This document shows positions 61 through 12,436 of a stretch of 22,490 bases of DNA, piece by piece; position 1 is the first letter of the stretch; every line of letters begins with the position of its first letter. A program made the translations under genes and the position numbers. The notes under the pieces are model-generated. The model saw nothing but the letters and a program-made list of their open reading frames with translations. It was not told the DNA's origin and searched no databases. This DNA comes from a virus. The stretch is from positions 1 through 22,490 of the IMG/VR virus record IMGVR_UViG_3300036820_000069; one strand, 5' to 3'.

Positions 61-2631
61 CTATTCCTCTGCCGTGTAGGTTGACGAGGGCGCTGTCGCG
101 ACATGCCCCTGGGCGTCGGGGTACTTGCGGTAGAAGCGGCCGATCTCCTCTATCGTACCCTCGTCGTGGTCGCCCACGCCGAGGGCCTCCGCGTCGGCGG
201 CCGAGCCGGAGTCGGCATCCGCGATCTCCGCGGTCAGGCCGGCCGCGTCGGCGATCGCCCCCTGGTCCGAGTCCCCGAGGACCGCGGCGAGAGTCGCGGA
301 GTCGGCGAACGAGCCTGTGTCGCTGTCGTGCTCTGATACCGCCAGGAATGCAGCATCAGCCCCTGTCACGAAATCCGTGCTGAGGATGCCGAGGATGCCG
401 GAGTCGGCCCCGGACCCGAGGTCGGCGTCGGCCAGCCCGAGCCAGGCGGCATCCGCGCCCAGGCCGGCGTCGGCGGAGCCGAGGCTCGCGTGGAGGGCCC
501 AGGAGTCCGCGGTCGGGCTGCTGTCGTCCGCGGAGGACACCTCGGCCAGGAGCGACCAGGCGTCCGCGGCCGGGGCGCTCGCGTCGGCATCGGGGACTGC
601 CGCGTGGAGCGACCAGGCGTCCGCGGCCGGGGCGCTCGCGTCGGCATCGGGGACTGCCGCGTGGAGCGACCAGGCGTCCGCGCAGGAGCCGGCGTCCGCG
701 CCGGACATCGGAAGCGAGACATCAGAGCAGAGCATTGAGTCGACGTAAACGACAAGGCCGTTATACGGCTGCTGAAGGCCTATGTCGACGTACTGGAATG
801 ATGCCGAGGCGACGGTCGCTGTCTGAACGCTCTCGATGAACGCGCCGGTAAGCCCGTTGTAGATGTTCATCTCTGCATAGCCGGAAACCGGATCTACATG
901 GAAGTGCGCATCGACTCGGTACCAAGTCGCGGCCTGGCAGGTGAACACGGTATGCGCGGCCTTTGATGCCATCTGAATGAGCACCACGCCGCTTGTCCCA
1001 ATTAGGATGTAATTCTGGCTGTTCCCGGTCTCGTCAATGCAGTCGACGAGAAGCGTGTTGGACGTTACCGGCAGACTCGGGAAGTAGAACCCGAACCGGA
1101 CGTAGACATCGAAGGTCGCATTGACGTTCCCGAAAAACCAGTTCCCGTAGACGCCGCTTGTCGAGGTAGCCGAGCACTTGTAAGAGAGCGAGCCGTCCAT
1201 CGCCTCAGTATTGCTGAACGTGAAGTTCGCAGAGCCAAGTGGGATATCAAACGGGTCGCCTGACGCGCCGCCGGAGTTCCCTGCCGTGGCGGCCGTTGCG
1301 TTGGTGCCGCCCTCTGCGTTATTCTGCTTCGCGAACACAAGCGGCCAGGTTCCCGGCATCGCGGCGCCTATCCAGCCCTGGTCAGAGACCGCGACGTCGT
1401 CGAAGTAGTACTTTACCGTCGTCTGGCCGCCCTGGTTCCCGAACGAGACGAACCCGCCAGCCGCGGTAGAGAGCGTGCCGCCTGTCGCGATCGTAGCCGA
1501 GTCGAGCAGATTACCGGAGTTATCGTAGAGCCGGACTCCCGCGCTCGCGGTGCCGGCGCCCGGGGTATACGTCATCTCGACCCGGTACCAGGTATTCGCT
1601 GACAGCGCATAGGAGCCGTTCGCAGTTGTCGCGCCGGTCAAGGTAATCGAGATCTTGCTGTTTGTCCCGAGCAGCACGGATACAATGCCGACACTCGCGT
1701 CATGATAGCGAGTGAGGTAGAGTTGCGTTCCCATCGCAGTAACGTAAACCCAGGTGCGGGTAAAGAGCGAAACATTATATGGAACATTCCAGGCGATCTG
1801 CGGGAACTGTGCGATGGTCGCGGCATTCGGGTTGCAGGCCATGGAGTACGCACCGGAGTGCGAGACCATGGTCGAATAGAGAGGATTCCCCTGCGTATTC
1901 GCCAAATCCACGCAGTAGCCTGACCTGAGGCCGCTGTTTGCCACGGCTATGACTGGGCCGTCAGTGTCAGGCGGTACCGGACTTGTTGAGATAGCAAGGT
2001 TTGTCATCCAGAATATTCCAGTGATATTTCCAGAAGCATTCCCGAAGTAAATTATTGAGTTCGTCGCTGTAGTGCCGCCGGTCGCAATCAGCGCCTCGAT
2101 GAGGTTTCCAGACGAGTCATAAATTCGCGCGATGCAGTACCCAGAGGTCCCGTTCGGGCAGATTGCAAGTGTTATCTGATACCAGGTATTCGCGGCAGGA
2201 GTCGATACGCTTGTCGCGATAGTCCCAGAGCCAGCTCGCGCAGACCAGTGGGTCCCGTCGAATTTGAGATAATATGCCGGTGTCGCAGCCTCGATTAGAT
2301 AGGCAGCTGTCGCACTCGTCGGGAGCAGCCCGAGATTTACCATCGCCGACGCATACTGGATTGTCGCGCTGCCGAGAACAGTCGTTGACCACTCAACAAG
2401 CGCCGTTGAAGCCACGGCAGTAAATTTATACGAAAGCGGCGATGCTCCGAATGACTGCGTGCTGTCGAAGGTTACTCCTCCGCCTACGCCGTTAAATGCC
2501 GTGCCTGAGCTCCCGCCGGAGTTCCCGGTCGTTACAGCAGTTCCGTTAGTGCCGCCGGCCGCGTTGTTCCCGTACCCGGACGCGGCAATCGACGCGGCGC
2601 CCTCGAAGCAGTTGAACCGGGTGAAGCTCAT
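61..2631 (-). CDS. Minor tail / receptor-binding protein with three LamG-like domains and an Ala-Asp repeat tail
   Basis: This 856-residue protein probably sits at the tail tip and binds the cell surface. Three successive units of about 200 residues (roughly 30-215, 225-425 and 430-635) each contain a strand pair of the type NTWYRVxxxY followed by RLYDxSGNLLxS, which is characteristic of concanavalin A/LamG-like jelly rolls. Units 1 and 3 begin with the same Gly-Asn-Ser-rich linker (GGTNGTA..GNSGG.SG). Residues ~640-825 are an acidic repeat of units such as ADAWSLHAAVPDADASAPA, part of it encoded by a perfect 57-base tandem repeat. The C-terminus (IGRFYRKYPDAQGH) is not repetitive. AGGAAGGG lies before the ATG. 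The position after the capsid genes and before a baseplate-like gene fits a tail role; the exact function is inferred. Confidence 0.7.
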   Translation of the reverse strand: MSFTRFNCFEGAASIAASGYGNNAAGGTNGTAVTTGNSGGSSGTAFNGVGGGVTFDSTQSFGASPLSYKFTAVASTALVEWSTTVLGSATIQYASAMVNLGLLPTSATAAYLIEAATPAYYLKFDGTHWSARAGSGTIATSVSTPAANTWYQITLAICPNGTSGYCIARIYDSSGNLIEALIATGGTTATNSIIYFGNASGNITGIFWMTNLAISTSPVPPDTDGPVIAVANSGLRSGYCVDLANTQGNPLYSTMVSHSGAYSMACNPNAATIAQFPQIAWNVPYNVSLFTRTWVYVTAMGTQLYLTRYHDASVGIVSVLLGTNSKISITLTGATTANGSYALSANTWYRVEMTYTPGAGTASAGVRLYDNSGNLLDSATIATGGTLSTAAGGFVSFGNQGGQTTVKYYFDDVAVSDQGWIGAAMPGTWPLVFAKQNNAEGGTNATAATAGNSGGASGDPFDIPLGSANFTFSNTEAMDGSLSYKCSATSTSGVYGNWFFGNVNATFDVYVRFGFYFPSLPVTSNTLLVDCIDETGNSQNYILIGTSGVVLIQMASKAAHTVFTCQAATWYRVDAHFHVDPVSGYAEMNIYNGLTGAFIESVQTATVASASFQYVDIGLQQPYNGLVVYVDSMLCSDVSLPMSGADAGSCADAWSLHAAVPDADASAPAADAWSLHAAVPDADASAPAADAWSLLAEVSSADDSSPTADSWALHASLGSADAGLGADAAWLGLADADLGSGADSGILGILSTDFVTGADAAFLAVSEHDSDTGSFADSATLAAVLGDSDQGAIADAAGLTAEIADADSGSAADAEALGVGDHDEGTIEEIGRFYRKYPDAQGHVATAPSSTYTAEE
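551..682. repeat. 57-bp perfect tandem repeat inside the tail gene
   Basis: Copies begin at 551, 608 and 665 with the same AGCGACCAGGCGTCCGCG start. The first two are complete and identical and the third covers 18 bases. One unit encodes 19 residues, so copy number can change without loss of frame. Weaker repeats of the same kind continue on both sides at the protein level. Confidence 0.9.
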
Positions 2632-3377: not shown

Positions 3378-4340
3378 TTAGGACCCGGTGTACTCCAGGC
3401 AGGCCCAGGCCTGCGGGAAGCCGGTGTGGAAGCCGCGGCGGGAGCGGTACATGAGCTCGATCGTGTCCTGGCCGGGCAGGCGCTCCTGCTTCGTCTCAGG
3501 GCCGGACCGGACGCCGAGGATCAGGTGATCCCGGTTTCCGACGAACAGGAGCGGGTTGCCGGTCGGCGAGTTGGACGGAACGCCGCCGGTCGCGACCATC
3601 GCGCCGAGGCTCCAGAGCGCCGGGGTGTCGAGCACCTGCACCGCGGTGCGGGTGGAGGCCTCGTCGGCGTAGCCGGTCACCGAGGTCTCGCCGGCCGCGT
3701 CGGTGAAGAGCGGGCGGCCGAGGTTGTCGGTGCAGGTCCGGAGAAGCCGCTTGAACCGCGGGTGGGCGATCACGATCGAGCGGTCGGGCGAGAAGAAGCG
3801 CGACTCCTCGTAGAGCGCGAAGGTGTTCATGATCGTGTTGTAGCCCGCGGTCCCGGCCAGCGTCGCGGTCGTCTTGTAGTTCGCGTTCGCGGTGTAGCCG
3901 GCGCCGCTGTCGTTCGTGGTGACCCCGGAATAAAGCGAGGTGAACGGGGTCGAGGTCTCGCGGACGCCCGTGCCGGTCGCGCCGAGGCAGGCGTTATCCA
4001 GGTGGATCGCGTACGAGCCGGCCCAGTCGGCGCCCCTCGTCGAGATCACGTCGATGATGCCGGCCAGGTCGGAGAGGTCCTCATCCGACAGCGGGACGCC
4101 CTGCGCGAACTTGCTCGCCTGGAGGGTTACCTCGTCGTCAGTCGAGGTGTCGTTCGTGTAGGCCACGCCTCGGGCGGTCACCGAGGAGCCGACGCCGCCG
4201 GACCGCGGGACGGCCCTGGCGTTCGTGCCCATCATGACCCTACGGGCGATGAACTCGACGGCGGACGTCTGCACGATCCGCGTGATTACGCCGGAGTCCA
4301 TCTCGATCGGTATCCATGAGGACTCATCCCTGGTGGTCAC
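3378..4340 (-). CDS. Major capsid protein, HK97-like fold
   Basis: This 320-residue protein forms the capsid shell. Its pattern is that of HK97-type capsid proteins: an N-terminal segment ending in SGVITRIVQTSAVEFIARRV, a loop and strand with TNDTSTDDEVTLQASKFAQG, then VPLSDEDLSDLAGIIDVIS and a helix in which AIHLDNACLGATGTG matches the usual 'aiD.a.l.G.G' signature. The C-terminal part (GRPLF, GNRDHLILGVRSG, RRGFHTGFPQAWACLEYTG) resembles the family's P- and A-domains. No protease domain precedes the fold. Start is GTG. The gene has its own promoter at about 4460, a leader of about 110 bases with two hairpins, and a strong hairpin after its stop. This makes it a separately controlled, probably highly expressed unit. 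Confidence 0.85.
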   Translation of the reverse strand: MTTRDESSWIPIEMDSGVITRIVQTSAVEFIARRVMMGTNARAVPRSGGVGSSVTARGVAYTNDTSTDDEVTLQASKFAQGVPLSDEDLSDLAGIIDVISTRGADWAGSYAIHLDNACLGATGTGVRETSTPFTSLYSGVTTNDSGAGYTANANYKTTATLAGTAGYNTIMNTFALYEESRFFSPDRSIVIAHPRFKRLLRTCTDNLGRPLFTDAAGETSVTGYADEASTRTAVQVLDTPALWSLGAMVATGGVPSNSPTGNPLLFVGNRDHLILGVRSGPETKQERLPGQDTIELMYRSRRGFHTGFPQAWACLEYTGS

Positions 4341-4500: not shown

Positions 4501-4635
4501 TTATCCCTCCTCCGGGCCGTCGCTTCCGTCGTCGTCATCCTGGGACTCCTGGAGGTAGACCGGGTCGAAGGGCTTGCCGCCGGCCGCGATAAGGTCGGTC
4601 AGCAGGGCCGGCTTGCTGCCGTCGTTTACCGTCAT
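4501..4635 (-). CDS. 44-aa peptide with KPFDPVYLQ motif
   Basis: A small acidic-tailed protein whose ATG overlaps the stop of the upstream ART by four bases (ATGA), with GGAGC seven bases upstream. The sequence LLTDLIAAGGKPFDPVYLQE is paralogous to the N-terminus of the 54-residue peptide that follows the other ART, and the same FxPVYLQES is found in the 200-residue protein at 15683-16285. The end is acidic (DDDDGSDGPEEG). It lacks the targeting-like tag seen at the end of the 54-residue peptide. The repeated ART-plus-peptide order suggests a partner, immunity or assembly role, but none is proven. Confidence 0.75.
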   Translation of the reverse strand: MTVNDGSKPALLTDLIAAGGKPFDPVYLQESQDDDDGSDGPEEG

Positions 4636-5558
4636 CCTATTGCTCCTATCTGCTCCACGCTGACATGCCACTCGCTGCCCTGCTGCACCGCGCTCTTCAC
4701 GCGGTACCGCCCGCCAGAGATCATCTCCTGCTCATACGAGATGCCGCCGCGCTTCTCGATATCCAGGCCGCGGGCGCTCGTCGCCGTGAGCACGACCTTT
4801 ACCGCGAAGCCGCCGGTATCATGACCGGCATCCGCGAACCGGTTCGCGATAAGCTTGCTTTTCGACCAGGAGGCCGCGCCGATGTCGAACTCAGCACCGG
4901 GGCCCTGCCTGAACGCGTCGAACAGCTTCTTCGCGTCGCCGGTCTGCGTCTGCGCCGCGGTTATCCATTTCATGCCGCGATGCAGCTCGCCGCCGGGGGC
5001 ATCCTCAGATTTCGTCTTAATAGCATCGATTAGGGTCTGAGCATACGAGCCCCAGTCAGTTCCCCTGGGCAGGCCAGCGGGCTGATTGCCGGTGATTATC
5101 CCGGTCATCGCCTGCGAGATATAGGACGAGCTCATCCGCCAAACGCCGACGGCCTTATTCAACTCGGCAGCTCGCGGCGCCTTGGTCTTTGCTGCCTGAG
5201 CCTTATGTGGCTCTTGCGGGAGTATCTGCGCCGCGAGCTTCTCTGCGTGGCCGCTGTCTCCCTTCGGCAGCTTGGACCGCTTTGACGAGATCGTCGCCTT
5301 GAGCGCCCCAGCATTTCCGCCAGTTGCCGCCGCCAGGGCATTCGTCAGGTGATGCCGTGCCTCATCGTTCTGCCCGGCCGCGATCGCCCGCTGAGCCGCC
5401 TGAAGGTGCGCGCCTATCTCGTTCTTCGCAGGGTGCGCGTCGAACTCGCCGCGCGCCGCTGACCCGGCCTTGATGACCTTCTCGCCGGCTGCGCCGCCGC
5501 CCGATGTCCAGTGCCCGTGCGCGTCGCGGTGCTCGAGCGGGCTAAACATCCAGCTCAC
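4632..5558 (-). CDS. ADP-ribosyltransferase effector with shared N-terminal module (308 aa)
   Basis: Predicted to transfer ADP-ribose from NAD+ to a host protein. The catalytic domain (residues ~135-308) has the three R-S-E landmarks: LHRGMKW with Arg194, the strand FDIGAASWSKS with Ser230-x-Ser232, and SYEQEMI with Glu276-x-Glu278, the ExE form found in arginine-directed toxins. The N-terminal ~97 residues form the module shared with both upstream effectors (HGHW, HPAKNEIGAHL, HLTNAL, ATISSKRSKL). It is followed at once by GHAEKLAAQIL (103-112), a match to the tag that ends the scaffold. GTG start, overlapping the preceding stop (GTGA). T4 Alt is a known ART carried in the head; packaging of this protein is my inference. 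It has no signal peptide or membrane segment. Confidence 0.85.
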   Translation of the reverse strand: MSWMFSPLEHRDAHGHWTSGGGAAGEKVIKAGSAARGEFDAHPAKNEIGAHLQAAQRAIAAGQNDEARHHLTNALAAATGGNAGALKATISSKRSKLPKGDSGHAEKLAAQILPQEPHKAQAAKTKAPRAAELNKAVGVWRMSSSYISQAMTGIITGNQPAGLPRGTDWGSYAQTLIDAIKTKSEDAPGGELHRGMKWITAAQTQTGDAKKLFDAFRQGPGAEFDIGAASWSKSKLIANRFADAGHDTGGFAVKVVLTATSARGLDIEKRGGISYEQEMISGGRYRVKSAVQQGSEWHVSVEQIGAIG

Positions 5559-5719
5559 TGCTTCCCGCGCATTATCTGCCTGGCGATCTGCTCGGCATGC
5601 CCGCTGTCACCGCCTGCATCGCCTGCATCGGCATCGTCCGCGGCATCCATGTTCTGAAGGTACAGCGGATCAAACGGCTTGCCGCTCTTCTTGACGACAT
5701 CAGCAAGAAGGTCCGTCAT
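5555..5719 (-). CDS. 54-aa linker peptide: KPFDPLYLQ motif plus scaffold-like C-terminal tag
   Basis: This peptide is made of three parts: LLADVVKKSGKPFDPLYLQN, an acidic Asp/Ala/Gly stretch, and the end GHAEQIARQIMRGKQ. The first part matches the 44-residue peptide and a segment of the 200-residue protein. The end is nearly the same as the scaffold C-terminus (GYAEQLARQIAGS). ATGA overlap with the larger ART upstream, GTGA overlap with the smaller ART downstream, and a GGAGC ribosome site support real translation. It may be an adaptor that brings a partner to the procapsid; this is inference. Confidence 0.8.
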   Translation of the reverse strand: MTDLLADVVKKSGKPFDPLYLQNMDAADDADAGDAGGDSGHAEQIARQIMRGKQ

Positions 5720-7842
5720 CCGAATGCTCCTATATGCTCCGCCGTAACATACGAGATATTATATTGCGTGACAACTTTCGTGATCTTGAACCGGCCGCCG
5801 GAGATCATCTCAGCCTCATGCGCGAACCCGCCGCCGGCATGCTGGATGTCGAACCCGCGCGCATTTGTCGTCGTCAGGACAAGGACGCGCGCGTAGGAAT
5901 CAGCGCTTTTTGCGCCAGAGAATGTCATCGCGATATCCGATTTCTTAGAGAAGGACGCGGCGCCGATGTCGAACTCGGTGCCTGCCCCTTTGTCGATCGC
6001 ATCCCAGAGCTTCTGCGCGCCTGGCTTGTTAAGGTCATTCGCGTTCCACTTCATCCCGCGGTAGAGCTTGCCGTCCGGAGCCGCCTTTGTCTTCGTCTTT
6101 AGCGCCTCCCACATCACGGCCGAATGCACGCTCAATGGCTCTTTGCCGTTGATTATATCCGTGATGCCCATGGAAATTGCAAATGAGCTTCCCTTCCAGG
6201 CCGAAATCGCCTGCGCAAGGGTTACAGGAGTATCATCTGCGCTCTTCGCCTTCTTCGGCTTGGCGACGGCGGCTTCCTTTGCCGCTGTAAGCGCTTTGCT
6301 CACCGCGATCGCAGCCACGTCATGGTCATTGTCGCTTGCCCACTTGCCGAGTTCCGTAAGCTGGTCGACGCTAATCGGCTTGAGGAATGCCTTGACATCA
6401 TTGCTCGCTGCCGTCCAGGCCGCAAAGTCACCGTACTTCGACGCGGCCTTCGCCGCAGAGTACTTTGTGATAAGCTCGACGAGCTTCGCCCGCTGGGCAT
6501 CGACTTGCGCGTGCGTAAGTTCCGGCGCCGGCGCGGACGAGGCGGCTGGCGCGACAGTCGCCAGGAGATCGGCCTTGTCCTTGTCCGCGCCCTTGACGCC
6601 GAGCTTCGACCTGCGGGACGAGATCGTCGCCTTTAGCGCGGGTGAGCTGTCGCCGCCTATCGACTTCAGCGCGTTCGTCAGGTGCGCATGCGCCGCGACA
6701 ACGTCGCCGGACTTCATGGACTTCCACGCCGCGTCGAGGTGCGTCCCGATCTGGGCCTTGTTCGGGTGGGCCATGAACTGCTCGTACGCAGCCGTCCCGG
6801 GGAGAAGCGTCTGCTCACCGGCATGCTCGTCCAGGACCGGCACTGGCTCTGCTGCTTCTGGGATGTCATCAGGCGCCGCGATCGCCGCCTTAAGGTGCTT
6901 CGCCGCCTCACTTGTGGAAGCTGCGTGCTGAGCGGCTTCAAGATGCTCAGCCGCGAACTTGCTTGTCACTGCCTTATTCTTAGCCGCCGCATGCAGGTCA
7001 GCGAGCTCAACCATTGTCACGACATGCTCTTCTGGCTTATCATCAGGCGCAAGCCCCAGGTTACTGGGATGACTTATTACCGCCGTGATCTTGTCCATCT
7101 TCGCCTGAAGGTTATCCGTCTTGATCTGCGCCTTGAGGCCCTCGGCCATCTGGGTGTGGTAGTGGGCATTCGTGGCCTCGCCCGGCTGATTCGCATAGGC
7201 AGCGGCAGCGATCTCATGCGCGTCGGCGGCCTGCTGCTTCAGGCTCTTGTCCTTTACGGCCGCGATTGACAGGCTGTTTGCCGCCTCTGAGAGCTTCTGG
7301 GCTTTTGGCTTGCCCTGATCAGCATTCTTCTCTTTAAGCTCTTTCATCAGCGCGCGGAGCTTGTCGATGGTCTTATCGGTAACCTGGTTAGGCTGGACGC
7401 CGAGAAGTTTTACCATCTCCTTTGCCTCGGGCGTGTTTATCTGTGTCCCCGCCTGGGCATGGAGCATGCTGCTCGACTTCGGCTTGATCCCTTTCGGCCC
7501 GGGCGTATTCCCTGGCAAGCTCTCACCAGCCGCTGGCTCATTCAGCCCGCCGAGTTTTGACCGGCGCGAAGAAATTGTGGCACGAAGGGCGCCGGCGTTC
7601 TTCCCGTACGACGCGACCAGGGCGCTGGTAAGGTGGTGCTTGGCCTCTACGGCGGAGCCGGCCTTTATCGCCTTCTGCGCGGCCTCGAGGTGGGCGCCGA
7701 TCTCATTCTTGTTCGGGTGGGCGGCGTACTCGAGGTGGGCATTTGATCCGTGCACAAGAGCCTTGTCGCCGGCAAGGCCGCCGCTCGACATCCACTCGCC
7801 ATGAGGGCTGCGATGCTGGAACGGGTCGAAATGCCAGGCCAT
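5716..7842 (-). CDS. Large multi-module ADP-ribosyltransferase effector (708 aa)
   Basis: The C-terminal domain (residues ~540-708) is an R-S-E ADP-ribosyltransferase paralogous to the 308-residue ART: LYRGMKW with Arg595, FDIGAASFSKKS with Ser630-x-Ser632, and AHEAEMI with Glu676-x-Glu678. The N-terminal module (1-97, PHGEW..HPNKNEIGAHL..ATISSRRSKL) is repeated at ~348-414 (HPNKAQIGTHL..ATISSRRSKL), with a degenerate piece at ~297-321 (AAEHLEAAQHAAS..AAKHLKAA). The middle (~130-340 and 430-540) is Ala/Lys-rich and helical and may be extended, with no recognised domain. No signal peptide or membrane segment is seen. The stop overlaps the next ATG. The protein is long for a phage ART, near the size of T4 Alt, a known packaged enzyme; delivery with the DNA is inferred. 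Confidence 0.85.
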   Translation of the reverse strand: MAWHFDPFQHRSPHGEWMSSGGLAGDKALVHGSNAHLEYAAHPNKNEIGAHLEAAQKAIKAGSAVEAKHHLTSALVASYGKNAGALRATISSRRSKLGGLNEPAAGESLPGNTPGPKGIKPKSSSMLHAQAGTQINTPEAKEMVKLLGVQPNQVTDKTIDKLRALMKELKEKNADQGKPKAQKLSEAANSLSIAAVKDKSLKQQAADAHEIAAAAYANQPGEATNAHYHTQMAEGLKAQIKTDNLQAKMDKITAVISHPSNLGLAPDDKPEEHVVTMVELADLHAAAKNKAVTSKFAAEHLEAAQHAASTSEAAKHLKAAIAAPDDIPEAAEPVPVLDEHAGEQTLLPGTAAYEQFMAHPNKAQIGTHLDAAWKSMKSGDVVAAHAHLTNALKSIGGDSSPALKATISSRRSKLGVKGADKDKADLLATVAPAASSAPAPELTHAQVDAQRAKLVELITKYSAAKAASKYGDFAAWTAASNDVKAFLKPISVDQLTELGKWASDNDHDVAAIAVSKALTAAKEAAVAKPKKAKSADDTPVTLAQAISAWKGSSFAISMGITDIINGKEPLSVHSAVMWEALKTKTKAAPDGKLYRGMKWNANDLNKPGAQKLWDAIDKGAGTEFDIGAASFSKKSDIAMTFSGAKSADSYARVLVLTTTNARGFDIQHAGGGFAHEAEMISGGRFKITKVVTQYNISYVTAEHIGAFG

Positions 7843-7846
7843 GCTG

Positions 7847-8848
7847 TTAACCCGTCTGCTTATCGAACTCGGCCATCAAGGATTTATGCCAGTCAGCTCG
7901 GCCGAGCGCCGCATACTGCGGGGCAAGCGCATTCAAGCCAGCACGCCACTCTGCCTTCTGCCCGGCAGACCAGCTTGCGCCTGAACCAGCGAGGGCTTTC
8001 GTAAACCTCCCGGTGCTCTGCAATGGCTTATGCTCATACCTGGCATGGCTGTGATCAATCGGCACAGGCTCGCCGCTGGTGTCGATCATCCAGTTCTTGT
8101 CTGTCCGGTCTGTATTGCCAGTGATCGCATCCAGCAGGCCGATGCGCTTGCCGCGCTCTGATGATGAAAACGGCTCAGCCCGTGCATTGCGGTCTGCTGG
8201 CGCAATGCTAAAGTCATCCAGTCCGAGAGCTTCTGATCCGGTCTTTCCTTTTATCTCTGCCGTATGAATGCGACTGCCCTTTACAACAACTGCCGGCGCG
8301 CCCGTGCCGAGCACGCGCGATACTTCGCCGGCGAGCACCTCGGCATCGCTTGTCGTCTTGTCGCTGTTCTTGCTGTACCATACTTGCCCGTTATTGTACT
8401 CAGTTCGCTTGACGACATGCGAGGCCTTACTCGCTGTCTCAGCTTTCACGCCTGATGCAATCGCATCTTTAAGCGACGACCCGCCGCTCGGATCAGCAGG
8501 AAGCGGCGGCGGGGCAATTTTCGCTGGCACCGGCTTGAGCTGCGCCGCGAGCTCTGCGACATGCCCTGTCGCCGGCAGCTTGGACCGGCGACTCGAGATA
8601 GTGGCACGAAGGTTCGCCGCGTCCTTGCCGCCGGCAGCCGCGAGCGCGTTCGTCAAGTGCGTCTTCGCGGAGGCATTATCGCCGGCCTTGATCGCGCCTG
8701 CCGCGCGGCCGAGGTGCTCGGCTATCTTGTCCTTGCCCGGGTGGGCCAGGAATTCGGCGTGGGCGGCCGAGCCGGGCTTGAGAGCGGCAGCCCCCATGGC
8801 GATCCACTCGCCGTGGGGGCCCCTGAGCTCATCCGGGTGGAATGCCAT
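7847..8848 (-). CDS. HipA/PI-kinase-like effector with shared N-terminal module (333 aa)
   Basis: Residues 1-91 are the same module as in the two ARTs (RGPHGEW, HPGKDKIAEHL, THLTNAL, ATISSRRSKL). They are followed at once by GHVAELAAQL (95-104), a variant of the scaffold-type tag. Residues ~143-333 resemble HipA and PI3/PI4-kinase-like folds: a lobe with Lys and AEVLAGEVSRVLG, the catalytic loop LLDAITGNTDRTDKNWMI (Asp247, Asn252) and a metal-binding VPIDHSHA (Asp265). A protein or small-molecule phosphotransferase acting on the host is likely, but the substrate is unknown and the glycine-rich loop is not obvious. First gene after the divergent ligase pair, with a -10 box (TATGAT) nine bases before the ATG. 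Four bases separate it from the large ART. Confidence 0.7.
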   Translation of the reverse strand: MAFHPDELRGPHGEWIAMGAAALKPGSAAHAEFLAHPGKDKIAEHLGRAAGAIKAGDNASAKTHLTNALAAAGGKDAANLRATISSRRSKLPATGHVAELAAQLKPVPAKIAPPPLPADPSGGSSLKDAIASGVKAETASKASHVVKRTEYNNGQVWYSKNSDKTTSDAEVLAGEVSRVLGTGAPAVVVKGSRIHTAEIKGKTGSEALGLDDFSIAPADRNARAEPFSSSERGKRIGLLDAITGNTDRTDKNWMIDTSGEPVPIDHSHARYEHKPLQSTGRFTKALAGSGASWSAGQKAEWRAGLNALAPQYAALGRADWHKSLMAEFDKQTG

Positions 8849-8857
8849 CTTGCGCGA

Positions 8858-8863
8858 ATCATA
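8858..8863 (-). promoter_or_regulatory. Predicted -10 box for the effector operon
   Basis: The minus strand reads GCGG-TATGAT, with nine bases to the ATG at 8848, so the leader would be only a few bases. The bases upstream form the palindrome ACCGCGCGCGGT. No clear -35 is seen. It would restart leftward transcription beyond the ligase insertion. Confidence 0.5.
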
Positions 8864-8902
8864 CCGCGCGCGGTGCTTCCCCGGGGGCTGTCTTCCGTAC
8901 TG

Positions 8903-8970
8903 GGCGTTTACAACTGCCTGATCTCGCGGTATAATGAAGAAGTACGTAGGAACAAGAGCAAGGGGAAATC
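8903..8970 (+). promoter_or_regulatory. Promoter-leader cassette P1, rightward, for the 48-aa protein and ligase
   Basis: GGCGTTTACAACT (8903-8915) contains -35 TTTACA (8907-8912). After exactly 17 bases comes TATAAT (8930-8935), a consensus -10. The predicted start is near 8942. The leader then reads GTACGTAGGAAC, two bases, GAGCAAGGGG and six bases to the ATG. The same promoter and leader, at the same 68-base distance to the start codon, occur at 18036-18104, and a close copy occurs at 18500-18569. Confidence 0.85.
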
Positions 8971-9117
8971 ATGAACAAGGTTCTGGACGCGGACGGCAGC
9001 GAGCTCGGGTACTGGTTCTACTGCAACCTCAGCAAGTGCTATATCGCAGTCAAGGCAAGCGGCGAGCGCGCGTCGGCCCGCGACATGTACCTGGCCGAGA
9101 GGTTCGTGCGGTCATGA
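8971..9117 (+). CDS. 48-aa protein of unknown function, first gene of the ligase unit
   Basis: Sequence MNKVLDADGSELGYWFYCNL continues to a basic end with AERFVRS. Two Cys (18 and 23) sit in an aromatic stretch, WFYCNLSKCYIAV. It starts just after the conserved leader with an AAGGGG ribosome site, and its TGA overlaps the ligase ATG by four bases (ATGA), so the two are translated together. No family is recognised. Confidence 0.8.
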   Translation: MNKVLDADGSELGYWFYCNLSKCYIAVKASGERASARDMYLAERFVRS

Positions 9118-10046
9118 TCGAGCCGATGAAGGCCGACTCAAGCCTCAAGCCGCTTATTCGCTGGGGCACGGCAGACCTGTTCCGCGACATCGCGGGCGAG
9201 TTCTTCAACGACCAGTGGGTCATGGAGCCGAAGATCGACGGCTGCCGCGCCCTGCTCGAGATGAAGGCGGACAGGTCCCGCTTCGGCGGCATGCGCGCGT
9301 CGTCGTTCCCGCAGTTCGGCAGCATCGCGATCGCCGACCTTGCTGGCACCGTCCTAGACGGCGAGTTCGTCGCGCCGGCCCTTCCGGGCCGCGACAAGGC
9401 ACTGCTCAAGCACTCGACCGCGCTGTTCAACTCTGGCCCGGCCGCTGCGATGAAGTGGCGCATGTACGGGCCCGCGCGCTTCGTGATCTTCGACGTCCTC
9501 GCAATTGCGGGCAAGGATGTTACCGGCTACTCCTATGACCAGCGGCGAATCCTGCTCGGGCAGGTCTACGAGATGATAATGCTCGAGTACCCGGACTGCG
9601 GGATCGAGATCATTGAGCAGGGGCCGGCGACCGCGGAGTACGCGAACAAGATCCTGGTCGCGGGCGGCGAGGGCGTCATGCTCAAGCTCCGCGCCGGCGC
9701 CTACGAGCACGGCAAGCGCTCTCTCAGCTGGCGCAAGGTAAAGCGGTTCGACACGGTCGACTGCTTCCTGACCGGCGAGGCCAGGCCTCACGAGCGCAAT
9801 CCCGAGATCGACGGGTCCGTGCAGGTCGCCGTCGCCGGCGCAGGCGGCCAGCCCGTTATCGTCGGCCATGTCAAGGTCGAGGAGGCATTCCGTGCCTATA
9901 TGCGAAAGGGCGTCGTCATCGAGGTCATGACGCAGGGGATAACCGAGGCCGGCGTCCTCCGCCACCCGCACATGCTCGCCCTTCGCCCGGATAAGAAGCC
10001 GGCCGACTGCGACGAGACCCAGCTGCTGTTCCTCGCGAAAGTCTGA
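9114..10046 (+). CDS. ATP-dependent DNA ligase (310 aa)
   Basis: Seals nicks in DNA using ATP through a covalent lysyl-AMP. The nucleotidyltransferase motifs are in order: motif I PKIDGCR with the adenylated Lys40, motif III VLDGEF, motif IIIa FVIFDVLAI, motif IV EGVMLK and motif V SWRKVKR. The C-terminal ~80 residues (VDCFLTG, GHVKV, VVIEVM) fit a compact OB-fold domain. At 310 residues it is a minimal phage-type ligase without the DNA-binding domain of larger ligases. The chosen ATG overlaps the stop of the 48-residue gene; a longer upstream frame is open but lacks protein-like composition. It is transcribed opposite to the surrounding head genes and ends before a terminator, so it looks like an inserted unit. 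Confidence 0.93.
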   Translation: MIEPMKADSSLKPLIRWGTADLFRDIAGEFFNDQWVMEPKIDGCRALLEMKADRSRFGGMRASSFPQFGSIAIADLAGTVLDGEFVAPALPGRDKALLKHSTALFNSGPAAAMKWRMYGPARFVIFDVLAIAGKDVTGYSYDQRRILLGQVYEMIMLEYPDCGIEIIEQGPATAEYANKILVAGGEGVMLKLRAGAYEHGKRSLSWRKVKRFDTVDCFLTGEARPHERNPEIDGSVQVAVAGAGGQPVIVGHVKVEEAFRAYMRKGVVIEVMTQGITEAGVLRHPHMLALRPDKKPADCDETQLLFLAKV

Positions 10047-10055
10047 AAAGAAAAG

Positions 10056-10140
10056 GAGAGGGCGCGCCGGCGGGTGACGTCGCCCGGCTTCCCCGCCGGC
10101 CGCCGGCCAAGGCGACAAGAGGTCCGGCTCGCGCCCTCTC
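10056..10140 (-). terminator. Nested hairpin terminator between convergent genes
   Basis: GAGAGGGCGCG (10056-10066) pairs with CGCGCCCTCTC (10130-10140), and inside it GCCGGCGGG (10066-10074) pairs with CCCGCCGGC (10092-10100). For leftward transcripts the stem is followed by CCTTTTCTTTTC, a U-rich tail, so it should end the portal-to-88-aa operon. It also lies after the ligase stop and may act on both strands. Confidence 0.75.
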
Positions 10141-10144
10141 TGGC

Positions 10145-10411
10145 TTAAGGCTTCTTGATCTGCGTGGCGACTGTCGCCGCGTGATCGGCGCCCTCGCCGG
10201 GCCCGTGACCGGGCCAGCCGCCGGTTGCCCGGTGATGCAGGTTCGCGCACAGGCCGGCCAGCTCGCGCGGGTCCGGGACGTACTTCCCGAGCTCGGCCCT
10301 GCACCGGTCGAAGTCGCCCGGGGTATCCCACCCGATCTTCGCCGCGCCGGCTCCCTCAGCCCAGTAGGCCATAAGCCGCTCAGTCGCCGCCGGCGCCTTG
10401 TCGTCTGCCAT
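10145..10411 (-). CDS. 88-aa head-operon protein with C-terminal tag
   Basis: The body (ERLMAYWAEGAGAAKIGWDT, then a segment with DFDRCRAEL and LCANLHHRATGGWPG) resembles, from memory, a small conserved protein type of actinobacterial phages and genomes, but I know no proven function. The last residues, ADHAATVATQIKKP, match the H-A-x-x-V-A-x-Q-I tag of the scaffold and MuF-like proteins. The ATG overlaps the MuF-like stop (TAATG), with GGGAG upstream. It is the last gene before the terminator. Location and tag suggest that it assembles with the procapsid. Confidence 0.75.
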   Translation of the reverse strand: MADDKAPAATERLMAYWAEGAGAAKIGWDTPGDFDRCRAELGKYVPDPRELAGLCANLHHRATGGWPGHGPGEGADHAATVATQIKKP

Positions 10412-10791
10412 TATCGTGCTCCCATTATCTGCTGCGCGAGCGCCATCGCATGCCCCTGCAGAGGCTTGACCTCGCGGAAGCCGGCCGGCATGATCTGGTT
10501 GGCCAGCGTCTCGGCCGCGGACCAGTACCGCTCCCTGAGCTGGAGGTGGCATTTGCAGTTCGGGTGGAGCGGCGGCCCGTCGACCCCAGACCACGTCTCG
10601 TCCGCGTCGATCTCGCTGCCGTCCAGATGCTCACATGCGTCGCACGGGTCGTCCTCGGTGTCCCACGTCTTCATCCAGGTACCGTTGGGCGGCTGATGAT
10701 CGAGCGCGTACTGGAGGGTATTGTCCGTCTTCGTCTCGGACGCGGCAGTCCGCGCATTCCTCTGCGCCGGGGTCTGGACCATATCAGGCAT
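10411..10791 (-). CDS. MuF-like minor head protein, short C-terminal-type form (126 aa)
   Basis: Contains the MuF head-morphogenesis signature: WDTEDDPCDACEHLDGSEI, then a short loop and GPPLHPNCKCHL (residues ~43-82), with four Cys and a His that could bind metal. MuF (SPP1 gp7-like) proteins bind the portal and are present inside the head in few copies. The usual N-terminal helical region is missing, so this is about half the size of most members or less. The C-terminus has two copies of the shared tag, AAETLANQIM (92-101) and GHAMALAQQIM (113-123). The start overlaps the zinc-ribbon gene by eight bases. MuF proteins are often fused to toxins in other phages; here the effectors are separate genes downstream. 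Confidence 0.8.
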   Translation of the reverse strand: MPDMVQTPAQRNARTAASETKTDNTLQYALDHQPPNGTWMKTWDTEDDPCDACEHLDGSEIDADETWSGVDGPPLHPNCKCHLQLRERYWSAAETLANQIMPAGFREVKPLQGHAMALAQQIMGAR

Positions 10792-10984
10792 TCGGATAAG
10801 GCGACAGCGGCATGCTCGCGCGGGCGTACTTGAAGCCACCCGGCGATTTCTTCCGGATTATCGCCGTGATCGCGCCGCATTTCGCGCACGTCCGGAACCG
10901 GCAGCCTTTCGCAGGGCAGTGCGGCGCGATCGTCCTGGACTCGCATGACGCGCAGCAGACCGGGAGCGGCCAGCCCTGGGCCAT
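10784..10984 (-). CDS. Small zinc-ribbon protein (66 aa)
   Basis: Six Cys and one His are arranged as VCCASCESR, APHCPAKGC and RTCAKCGA within residues 9-40, which fits a treble-clef or zinc-ribbon fold. The rest is basic (IIRKKSPGGFKYAR). The ATG lies two bases after the DUF1003 stop and the gene runs into the MuF-like gene. It may bind nucleic acid or protein during head assembly; no family could be named. Confidence 0.75.
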   Translation of the reverse strand: MAQGWPLPVCCASCESRTIAPHCPAKGCRFRTCAKCGAITAIIRKKSPGGFKYARASMPLSPYPNA

Positions 10985-10986
10985 GG

Positions 10987-11475
10987 CTATTCCCCGGCAG
11001 GCGGGTGACGGCGGCCGCGCTGCTGCGGGCCGGGGGTGATCGTCACCGGGACGACCTGGTTCTTGACCATGTCCCGGACCTGCGTCGCCAGCGAGTGCAC
11101 CTGCTCGGTGAGCGCCGTGTTCGCCTCGATCAGCGCGCAATGCCTCTGCGCGATCTCCTCGCGGTGCGCCGCATCCGCGGCGATCGCGGCCTTGTCCCTG
11201 TCGGCCTGCCTTGTCTGCGCGAGCAGGATAAGCGGCGCCGCGTACGCCGCCTGCGTGGAGAAGCACAGGTTGAGCAGGATGAACGGGTACGGGTCCCACT
11301 TGTGAACGATCGCAAGCGCATTCAGGGCGATCCAGATCGCGACTACGAAAGTCTGGCCTACGATGAACCCGGGCGTCCCGAAGGCGCGGGCGAACTTCTC
11401 GGCGATCTTGCCAAAGCCGCCGGCGCCGAACGGGGCTTCCAGGTGCGCGTAATTGTGGTGCCTGCTTATGCTCAC
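10987..11475 (-). CDS. DUF1003 family membrane protein
   Basis: Two membrane helices (about residues 36-57 and 65-87) surround the family's typical DPYPFILLNL loop, followed by APLILLAQTRQADRD. This is the signature of DUF1003 proteins, which are common in bacteria and occur in phages; their function is unknown. Residues ~90-137 are likely a coiled coil, so the protein may oligomerise at the membrane. GTG start with GGAGG six bases upstream, overlapping the 104-residue gene's stop (GTGA). A membrane protein inside a head operon is unusual; a role in host membrane change or superinfection exclusion is speculation. Confidence 0.85.
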   Translation of the reverse strand: MSISRHHNYAHLEAPFGAGGFGKIAEKFARAFGTPGFIVGQTFVVAIWIALNALAIVHKWDPYPFILLNLCFSTQAAYAAPLILLAQTRQADRDKAAIAADAAHREEIAQRHCALIEANTALTEQVHSLATQVRDMVKNQVVPVTITPGPQQRGRRHPPAGE

Positions 11476-11786
11476 AATTGCCTCCAGGTATTGCCCTCGT
11501 CAAGGTACCCGTGCCAGTAGTAATCCGGCGCGAACCCGCAGCCGATCGACTCGCGGATCTCCAGCGACCCGTCAGCGCACTCGCGGAAGACCCACGGCGG
11601 CTCGTAGACGCCGTGAATTGCGTTCCCTGGCGCGTACTCGGCCATGCCGCCCTGGTGGACTGGCAGAAGGAACCAGACGACAAGGCGCTTGCCCTTGGCG
11701 TCCTCCTGCTCATGCGGCCCGGTGTAGTCGCCGGCCAGCTCGAGGTCGTTGAACGAGGCGACCCTCCGGGCCGGCGACAGGATCAC
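11472..11786 (-). CDS. 104-aa protein of unknown function in the head operon
   Basis: A mixed alpha/beta protein with aromatic-rich stretches (KRLVVWFLLPVHQGG, GVYEPPWVFRECADG, PDYYWHGYLDEGNTW). The end, ADGSLEIRESIG followed by WHGYL and NTW, recalls a C-terminal pattern of small phage proteins that I cannot assign. GTG start inside the scaffold stop (GTGA) and GTGA overlap with DUF1003 make it part of a tightly coupled set. Confidence 0.7.
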   Translation of the reverse strand: MILSPARRVASFNDLELAGDYTGPHEQEDAKGKRLVVWFLLPVHQGGMAEYAPGNAIHGVYEPPWVFRECADGSLEIRESIGCGFAPDYYWHGYLDEGNTWRQL

Positions 11787-12436
11787 GAGCCGGCGATCTG
11801 CCTGGCGAGCTGCTCCGCGTACCCCGCCGGCGGCTTTGCCGGCGCCCTGCGGCTCCCGATCGCGACGCGGCCGGCAGGCGCGGTCGCGCCGTTCCCGTTC
11901 GCGCCTGGCTCGCCATCGGCCGGCGCGGCCGGCGTGACTGGCGCGGCAGCTTGGAACAAGCCGGGATACTCAGTCTTGAGCGCCTCGATCTGCTCGTCGA
12001 TGCCGCTGAGCTCGCCGTCCGCGGTGACCGTCACGGTCTCGCCGAGATCGAGCAGGGCGATCAGCTTGGACGGGCTTCCCTGAAGGCCGGCCTGCGCGAG
12101 CGCGCTCCTGGCGGCGACCTTCTTAAGCGTGGCCTCGCCCTCGGCGGCGGTCGCGTCGACCTTGTCCTGCCAGGCCTTGTCCTGCGCGGACATTCCCTGC
12201 GCCTGGAGCGCCGCGAGGGTCGCGGCGGTCTTCCGGTGCTGCGCGCGCTCCGCGTCGAGCGCCTTCTTCAGCCCGGTGGCCGGGTCGGCGAGGACGGCCG
12301 GCTTCTTGGCCGGGTCGGCGGCGGGCGGCTCCGCGGGGTCCGCGGGATCCGCGGGGTCCGCGTCGTCGACTGTCTCGTCGTCCTCGGGCGGGTCGACGAA
12401 GTCGTCAGCTGGATCATGGACTGGTGGCATGGTCAT
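11783..12436 (-). CDS. Scaffold protein (217 aa)
   Basis: Scaffolds guide capsid protein into procapsids and then leave. This protein is typical in composition and place: an acidic, Asp/Pro-rich N-terminus (residues 1-45), a helical middle (LKKALDAERAQHRKTAATLA, through LKKVAARSALAQAG), then a flexible Pro/Ala/Gly linker and a short C-terminal helix, GYAEQLARQIAGS (205-217). C-terminal helices of scaffolds commonly bind the capsid protein. This same end recurs in five other proteins of the window. The gene follows the portal. No strong ribosome site precedes the ATG at 12436, which lies 20 bases after the 53-residue gene. Confidence 0.8.
   Translation of the reverse strand: MTMPPVHDPADDFVDPPEDDETVDDADPADPADPAEPPAADPAKKPAVLADPATGLKKALDAERAQHRKTAATLAALQAQGMSAQDKAWQDKVDATAAEGEATLKKVAARSALAQAGLQGSPSKLIALLDLGETVTVTADGELSGIDEQIEALKTEYPGLFQAAAPVTPAAPADGEPGANGNGATAPAGRVAIGSRRAPAKPPAGYAEQLARQIAGS

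Follow-up and report, generated by a model that had tools for sequence, protein, structure and literature searches.

We describe here a short amphipathic helix that recurs in the head region of a virus genome, IMG/VR record IMGVR_UViG_3300036820_000069, and the view that it is a copy of the C-terminal tail of the phage's own scaffolding protein is well supported. The stretch analysed (hereafter the window) is the entire record of 22,490 bases; its late genes are carried by the minus strand, and the virus appears to be a phage of actinobacterial type. A preliminary description had noticed the motif [HYA]-[AV]-x-x-[LIV]-A-x-Q-[IL] in six head-region proteins, and all seven copies were confirmed in place. 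They lie on the minus strand between the portal and the capsid genes, the region to which that description had confined them, and no further match to the pattern was found in the six frames of the record. It is probable that the mimicry of the scaffold tail docks passenger proteins inside the procapsid. The copies, in proteins that include a MuF-like minor head protein, a small ADP-ribosyltransferase (ART)-like protein and a kinase-like protein, are the following (aa, amino acids; rank, place of the own scaffold among 73 distinct scaffold tails):

11786..11824, minus strand: C-terminal tail of the scaffold, GYAEQLARQIAGS, the presumed original; predicted helix 206-215 after a disordered linker; scaffold-tail family
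10489..10518, minus strand: inner copy of the MuF-like protein, AAETLANQIM; resembles family scaffold tails (SAETLAERLL in locus L056); shuffle p 0.005
10414..10455, minus strand: C-terminal tag of the MuF-like protein, GHAMALAQQIMGAR; rank 1/73; shuffle p 0.004
10148..10186, minus strand: C-terminal tag of an 88-aa protein, DHAATVATQIKKP, possible and weak; shuffle p 0.083
8537..8566, minus strand: inner tag of the kinase-like protein, GHVAELAAQL, directly after a shared module; rank 2/73; shuffle p 0.012
5558..5602, minus strand: C-terminal tag of a 54-aa peptide, GHAEQIARQIMRGKQ; rank 1/73; shuffle p 0.001
5220..5252, minus strand: inner tag of the small ART-like protein, GHAEKLAAQIL, directly after the shared module; rank 1/73; shuffle p 0.002

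Positions i, i+3, i+4 and i+7 are A, L/I/V, A and I/L in all copies, with V in the first place in the kinase-like protein. The distance to the stop codon is 3 to 5 residues for the terminal copies of the scaffold and of the MuF-like, 54-aa and 88-aa proteins. Synonymous codons differ while the tag peptide stays, and the 54-aa peptide and the small ART share only three of seven third bases. The preliminary description needs correction at two points. The copies are not all independent: the small ART and the kinase-like protein share the N-terminal module that precedes the tag, and the peptide GDSGHAE is common to the small ART and the 54-aa peptide. Moreover, no copy is present in a big ART-like protein that contains this module twice.

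The frequency of the motif was evaluated by shuffling residues within genes, over 29 genes judged to be real or likely (6,874 aa in total). Seven matches were observed against 0.0255 expected, with a maximum of 1 in 2,000 shuffles. The motif search over related phages suggested in the preliminary description also turned out in favour of its claim: a slightly wider pattern gave 7 matches in 372,581 aa of non-scaffold, non-capsid genes from about 90 related loci (0.19 per 10,000 aa), never at a C-terminus. Because the pattern was derived from its own hits, the scaffold tail alone was also used as a fixed query. The 54-aa peptide obtained the best score (41), followed by the small ART (33) and the C-terminal MuF copy (26), the 95% shuffle maximum being 25. 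The kinase-like and the inner MuF copies (22 each) fall below this maximum on their own and are backed by their position and by their likeness to scaffold tails. A generic scaffold-tail profile lacked the power to rank the window tags by itself, and the tags were therefore compared with the own tail among the 73. This comparison shows that the 54-aa peptide, the small ART and the MuF C-terminus carry tags which fit the phage's own scaffold tail better than the 72 other tails, while for the kinase-like tag the own scaffold was second best. The start of the helix is mostly [ST][ST]AE in other phages and G[HY]A in the scaffold and tags of this phage. Searches of viral_contigs with tag DNA patterns returned 4 and 12 stretches; the readable matches fell in frames that were unrelated or spurious, and a scaffold or capsid match was absent from all 12.

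The tail that is copied belongs to a wider family. Related loci were collected by capsid-protein alignment searches (80 viral contigs, then 12 prophage loci from actinobacterial genomes) and by tblastn (19 phage records, mostly from Streptomyces phages); single-protein scans of viral_contigs, one with the capsid and one with the MuF protein, revealed no relatives. In the related loci a scaffold gene lies upstream of the capsid gene, and most of these scaffolds have at their end a linker followed by a short helix rich in Ala, with the consensus [ST]-[ST]-A-E-x-x-A-x-[QR]-[LI]-x-G. Examples are KSSAERIAARLAG, KTSAETLAERLLG and LTAAERVANRLRG, to be compared with GYAEQLARQIAGS of the window. AlphaFold2, run with 18 scaffolds, predicted a disordered linker and then a helix at residues 206-215. 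Across the family, the C-terminus of the scaffold is a genuine conserved element, and together with the ranking of three tags this upholds the earlier claim that the motif copies the scaffold tail. No tagged passenger was found among the 12 prophage loci obtained with the capsid query of genome_contigs. Two further observations were made on these scaffolds and capsid proteins. An N-terminal element resembling G-Y-R-A-D-G-R-P-I-x-x-I-A-G-G is found in 12 capsid proteins and 12 scaffolds of loci L002-L104, and by pattern search never in both proteins of one locus. The satellite phages MiniFlayer (OQ357865) and Mulchroom (OQ784832) have capsid proteins of the same family and short scaffolds.

In a second lineage, a scaffold-like tail is carried by a protein unrelated to the scaffold. 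Streptomyces phage Yara and four contigs (L111, L112, L113 and L114) encode, between the scaffold and the capsid genes, a DUF305-like protein of about 86 aa which ends in AAxRLxG or ADRLxG (for instance AAARLMGGYDY, ADRLMGREAY and ADRLRAGYEY). The scaffold encoded directly upstream ends in ADRLRG or ANRLRG. The tail is retained although the DUF305-like proteins are just 33-39% identical to each other. With the general scaffold-tail profile, just two upstream GC-rich open reading frames (ORFs) exceeded a score of 9, and both were of the DUF305-like kind; their single scores overlap those of the best antisense ORFs. In L114 (4001-4258) an in-frame stop codon stands right before the tail of the DUF305-like gene.

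How such a tail may work is suggested by phage 80alpha. In its procapsid, as resolved by cryo-EM, the scaffold chain finishes with an amphipathic helix of 11 residues and a hook, which together make up its final 16 residues (PMC5644958). Residues L194, I197, A198 and K201 contact the N-arm helix of the capsid protein (PMC5644958, Table 2). The 72-residue protein CpmB of SaPI1 bears the same tail, docks like the 80alpha scaffold and competes with it (PMC5644958). The 80alpha scaffold (gp46) ends in PQNLAEIARQKRIIKN. When the tails are aligned on I-A-R-Q, the 80alpha contacts fall at i, i+3, i+4 and i+7, hence on the fixed A/V, L/I/V, A and I/L of the motif, and Q is present at i+6 in 80alpha, CpmB and every window copy. 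The capsid protein of the window was aligned by hhalign with 80alpha gp47 with a probability of 94.6 over residues 12-316, including the N-arm helix. The window therefore shares with 80alpha and CpmB an amphipathic C-terminal helix on a flexible linker, the [IL]-A-x-Q core with its contact spacing, a related capsid fold with an N-arm, and the use of one tail on otherwise different proteins. It differs by having several passengers instead of one, by the internal position of some copies, and by carriers that are encoded by the phage and not by a satellite.

These likenesses lead us to propose the following course of events. An amphipathic helix would have been copied from the phage's own scaffold tail onto other head-region proteins. 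During procapsid assembly the scaffold tail, on its flexible linker, would dock on the inner face of the capsid, at the N-arm helix; proteins bearing the helix would compete for these docking sites and become enclosed with the scaffold. Expansion of the shell would then shift the N-arm and release the tags, and the freed proteins would remain inside the head, from which they might be ejected along with the DNA. Binding of the tail to this capsid protein is inferred, as are loading, release and injection of the tagged proteins; the capsid-targeting interpretation of the preliminary description is partly supported.

Several observations weigh against this proposal. The tags of the small ART and of the kinase-like protein are internal and not C-terminal, and the big ART-like protein contains no copy despite two modules and a C-terminal domain like that of the small ART; since the big ART and 54-aa peptide genes overlap (ATGA), it is thinkable that the tag might be supplied to the big ART in trans by this peptide. 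Listed among the carriers in the preliminary description, the 88-aa protein does match the motif; its score of 15 is within the noise and not significant, which makes it a doubtful carrier. Single-protein scores overlap those of the best antisense ORFs (34), non-scaffold C-termini are rarely tagged in about 100 related loci, and the multi-tag state is seen in one genome only. Compared with 80alpha, which has an RIIK hook (RIIKN), the window tails read IAGS, IMRGKQ and IMGAR; the two scaffolds fall in different Pfam families, and hhalign detected no significant relation between them. The window scaffold is thus not supported as a member of the 80alpha scaffold family, and with the hook missing we speak of a likeness of working and not of membership.

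Part of these data could be accounted for if Ala-rich amphipathic helices arose by chance or convergence in GC-rich coding sequence, spread partly by recombination of the module and of neighbouring genes. The weakness of the 88-aa tag, the module common to the small ART and the kinase-like protein, and the occurrence by chance of the peptide GHAExxAxQI in 12 viral contigs all fit such an origin. We nevertheless regard it as improbable, given the excess of matches over shuffled genes, their absence from the other genes of the record, their rarity in the other genes of relatives, and the same arrangement in the Yara lineage. The tagged proteins could also be assembly regulators that, like CpmB (a scaffold competitor; PMC5644958), vie with the scaffold for the capsid protein and so tune head size or scaffold density. 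The best candidate is the 54-aa peptide, which is similar to CpmB in size and layout; in the Yara group, the DUF305-like proteins are small too. Two of the tagged proteins are, however, enzyme-like, which a size regulator would not need, and the 54-aa peptide shows no sign of a dimerisation domain, so that this role seems to us rather unlikely.

A different ligand for the tag, namely the scaffold core or the portal, would be closer to phage T4. There the targeting sequence is N-terminal, binds the scaffolding core, draws internal proteins into it, suffices to load foreign proteins and is cleaved off (PMC9026906, PMC3012670); MuF proteins are, moreover, known partners of the portal (PMC5576092). 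A copy of the scaffold tail would more simply bind the partner of the scaffold, which in 80alpha is the capsid protein, and we consider a core or portal ligand improbable. The comparison with T4 already made in the preliminary description holds for a short sequence common to otherwise unrelated head proteins. In other respects it is looser: the T4 signal is N-terminal and cut by gp21, whereas the window tags are C-terminal or internal and copy the scaffold tail. Phage P1 also directs large antirestriction proteins to the head by a short N-terminal signal, as in DarB (PMC9024508); this signal comprises the N-terminal 30 residues, no separate P1 scaffold has been identified, and no sequence likeness to the window tags is claimed. 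In MuF polymorphic toxins, a MuF gene and ART-like proteins thought to be injected occur in one head module (PMC5576092). In the window, by contrast, the ART-like and kinase-like domains lie on proteins other than MuF, and the tag is the shared element. Encapsulin cargo-loading peptides and engineered P22 scaffold fusions likewise use a short, usually C-terminal piece to bring cargo inside an HK97-fold shell; the former are not derived from a scaffold, and the P22 cargo fusions are man-made. Docking of passengers by a scaffold-like tail remains our preferred reading.

The genes and domains concerned, and those around them, are arranged as follows:

22130-20271, minus strand: terminase, identity read from the translation; no Pfam match
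down to 12628, minus strand: portal gene, start uncertain
11783..12436, minus strand: scaffolding protein, 217 aa; PF06810 E 2e-15, phrog_194 E 9e-15
between the scaffold and MuF genes, minus strand: DUF1003 protein
10411..10839, minus strand: MuF-like minor head protein, short, 142 aa; PF04233 E 4e-8
10145..10411, minus strand: 88-aa protein, phrog_6439 domain E 2e-27
7847..8848, minus strand: kinase-like protein, 333 aa, probable passenger; PI3_PI4_kinase E 1.2e-5
8564-8848, minus strand: shared module, kinase-like copy
5716..7842, minus strand: big ART-like protein, 708 aa; two module copies, no tag
7543-7842 and 6583-6822, minus strand: shared module, big ART copies
5555..5719, minus strand: 54-aa peptide gene; GGAG ribosome-binding site 7 bases before the ATG
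4632..5558, minus strand: small ART-like protein, 308 aa, probable passenger; 46% identity to the C-terminal domain of the big ART
5259..5558, minus strand: shared N-terminal module, small ART copy
3378..4340, minus strand: major capsid protein, presumed binding partner of the tag; PF25209 E 7e-7

The scaffold matches PF06810 with 57.6 bits against a curated cut-off of 35 and is thus a phage scaffold of the PF06810 type; the major capsid protein is 38% identical to Zukovirus capsid proteins. The MuF identity of the 142-aa protein is certain. It has about half the length of its relatives (286-352 aa), whose ends lack the tag, and the C-terminal part of the relatives is lost; it consists of the MuF domain and the tags only, with no fused toxin domain as in MuF polymorphic toxins. 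The PI3_PI4_kinase match of the kinase-like protein falls just under the curated cut-off, and its residues 99-333 match gp82 of Microbacterium phage Pumpernickel (E 5e-5); no other relatives of this protein or of the big ART were found among phages. The ART-like identity is suggested by motifs read by eye in the small ART, R (LHRGM), S (GAASWSKS) and E-x-E (YEQEMISGG), and by the identity between the two domains; no family or structure match confirms it, and the PDB yielded no relative of the ART-like or kinase-like proteins. A structure of the ART predicted from two sequences was poor (predicted local distance difference test, pLDDT, 46) and hence not used. The copies of the shared module (about 95 residues) are 52-61% identical to the first one, and viral_contigs contained no relatives of it.

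The phrog_6439 domain of the 88-aa protein is common in actinobacteriophages (158 phage records), stand-alone or fused to head protease-MuF proteins. Inheritance of the 88-aa tag from this domain family was rejected: 24 of 24 distinct stand-alone homologues lack such a tail. The 54-aa peptide is made of an N-terminal element, an acidic stretch and the tag. Another recurrent element, F[DS]P[LV]YLQ[EN] with acidic residues after it, is present on the minus strand in this peptide (5719-5555), in a small acidic protein encoded just before the capsid gene (4671-4501), and in a 200-aa protein upstream of the portal (16285-15683); the similar FSPFWYA[DS]GDDD begins the scaffolds of two relatives. Within the head operon, a gene of opposite direction (8934-10046, plus strand) contains a ligase-like E-P-K-I-D-G motif and probably encodes an ATP-dependent DNA ligase. 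The last gene (61-2631, minus strand, 856 aa) has imperfect repeats at its end, such as DADASAPAADAWSLHAAVP. No prohead protease was identified among the genes scanned, which did not amount to a full search.

The choice of proteins for the head interior is known in few systems (T4, P1 and P22). A tag copied from the scaffold's grip would allow injected proteins to be predicted from sequence by a simple rule, checkable in isolates such as Streptomyces phage Yara, and would supply a short natural peptide with which proteins could be loaded into phage shells. Such a tag would also mean that phages themselves use CpmB-style scaffold mimicry for cargo. We tentatively suggest that scaffold-tail mimicry could serve actinobacterial phages in general as an evolvable code for loading cargo, in which unrelated genes adjacent to the scaffold gain a copy of the local tail that then changes together with it, so that head cargo might be read from the tail.

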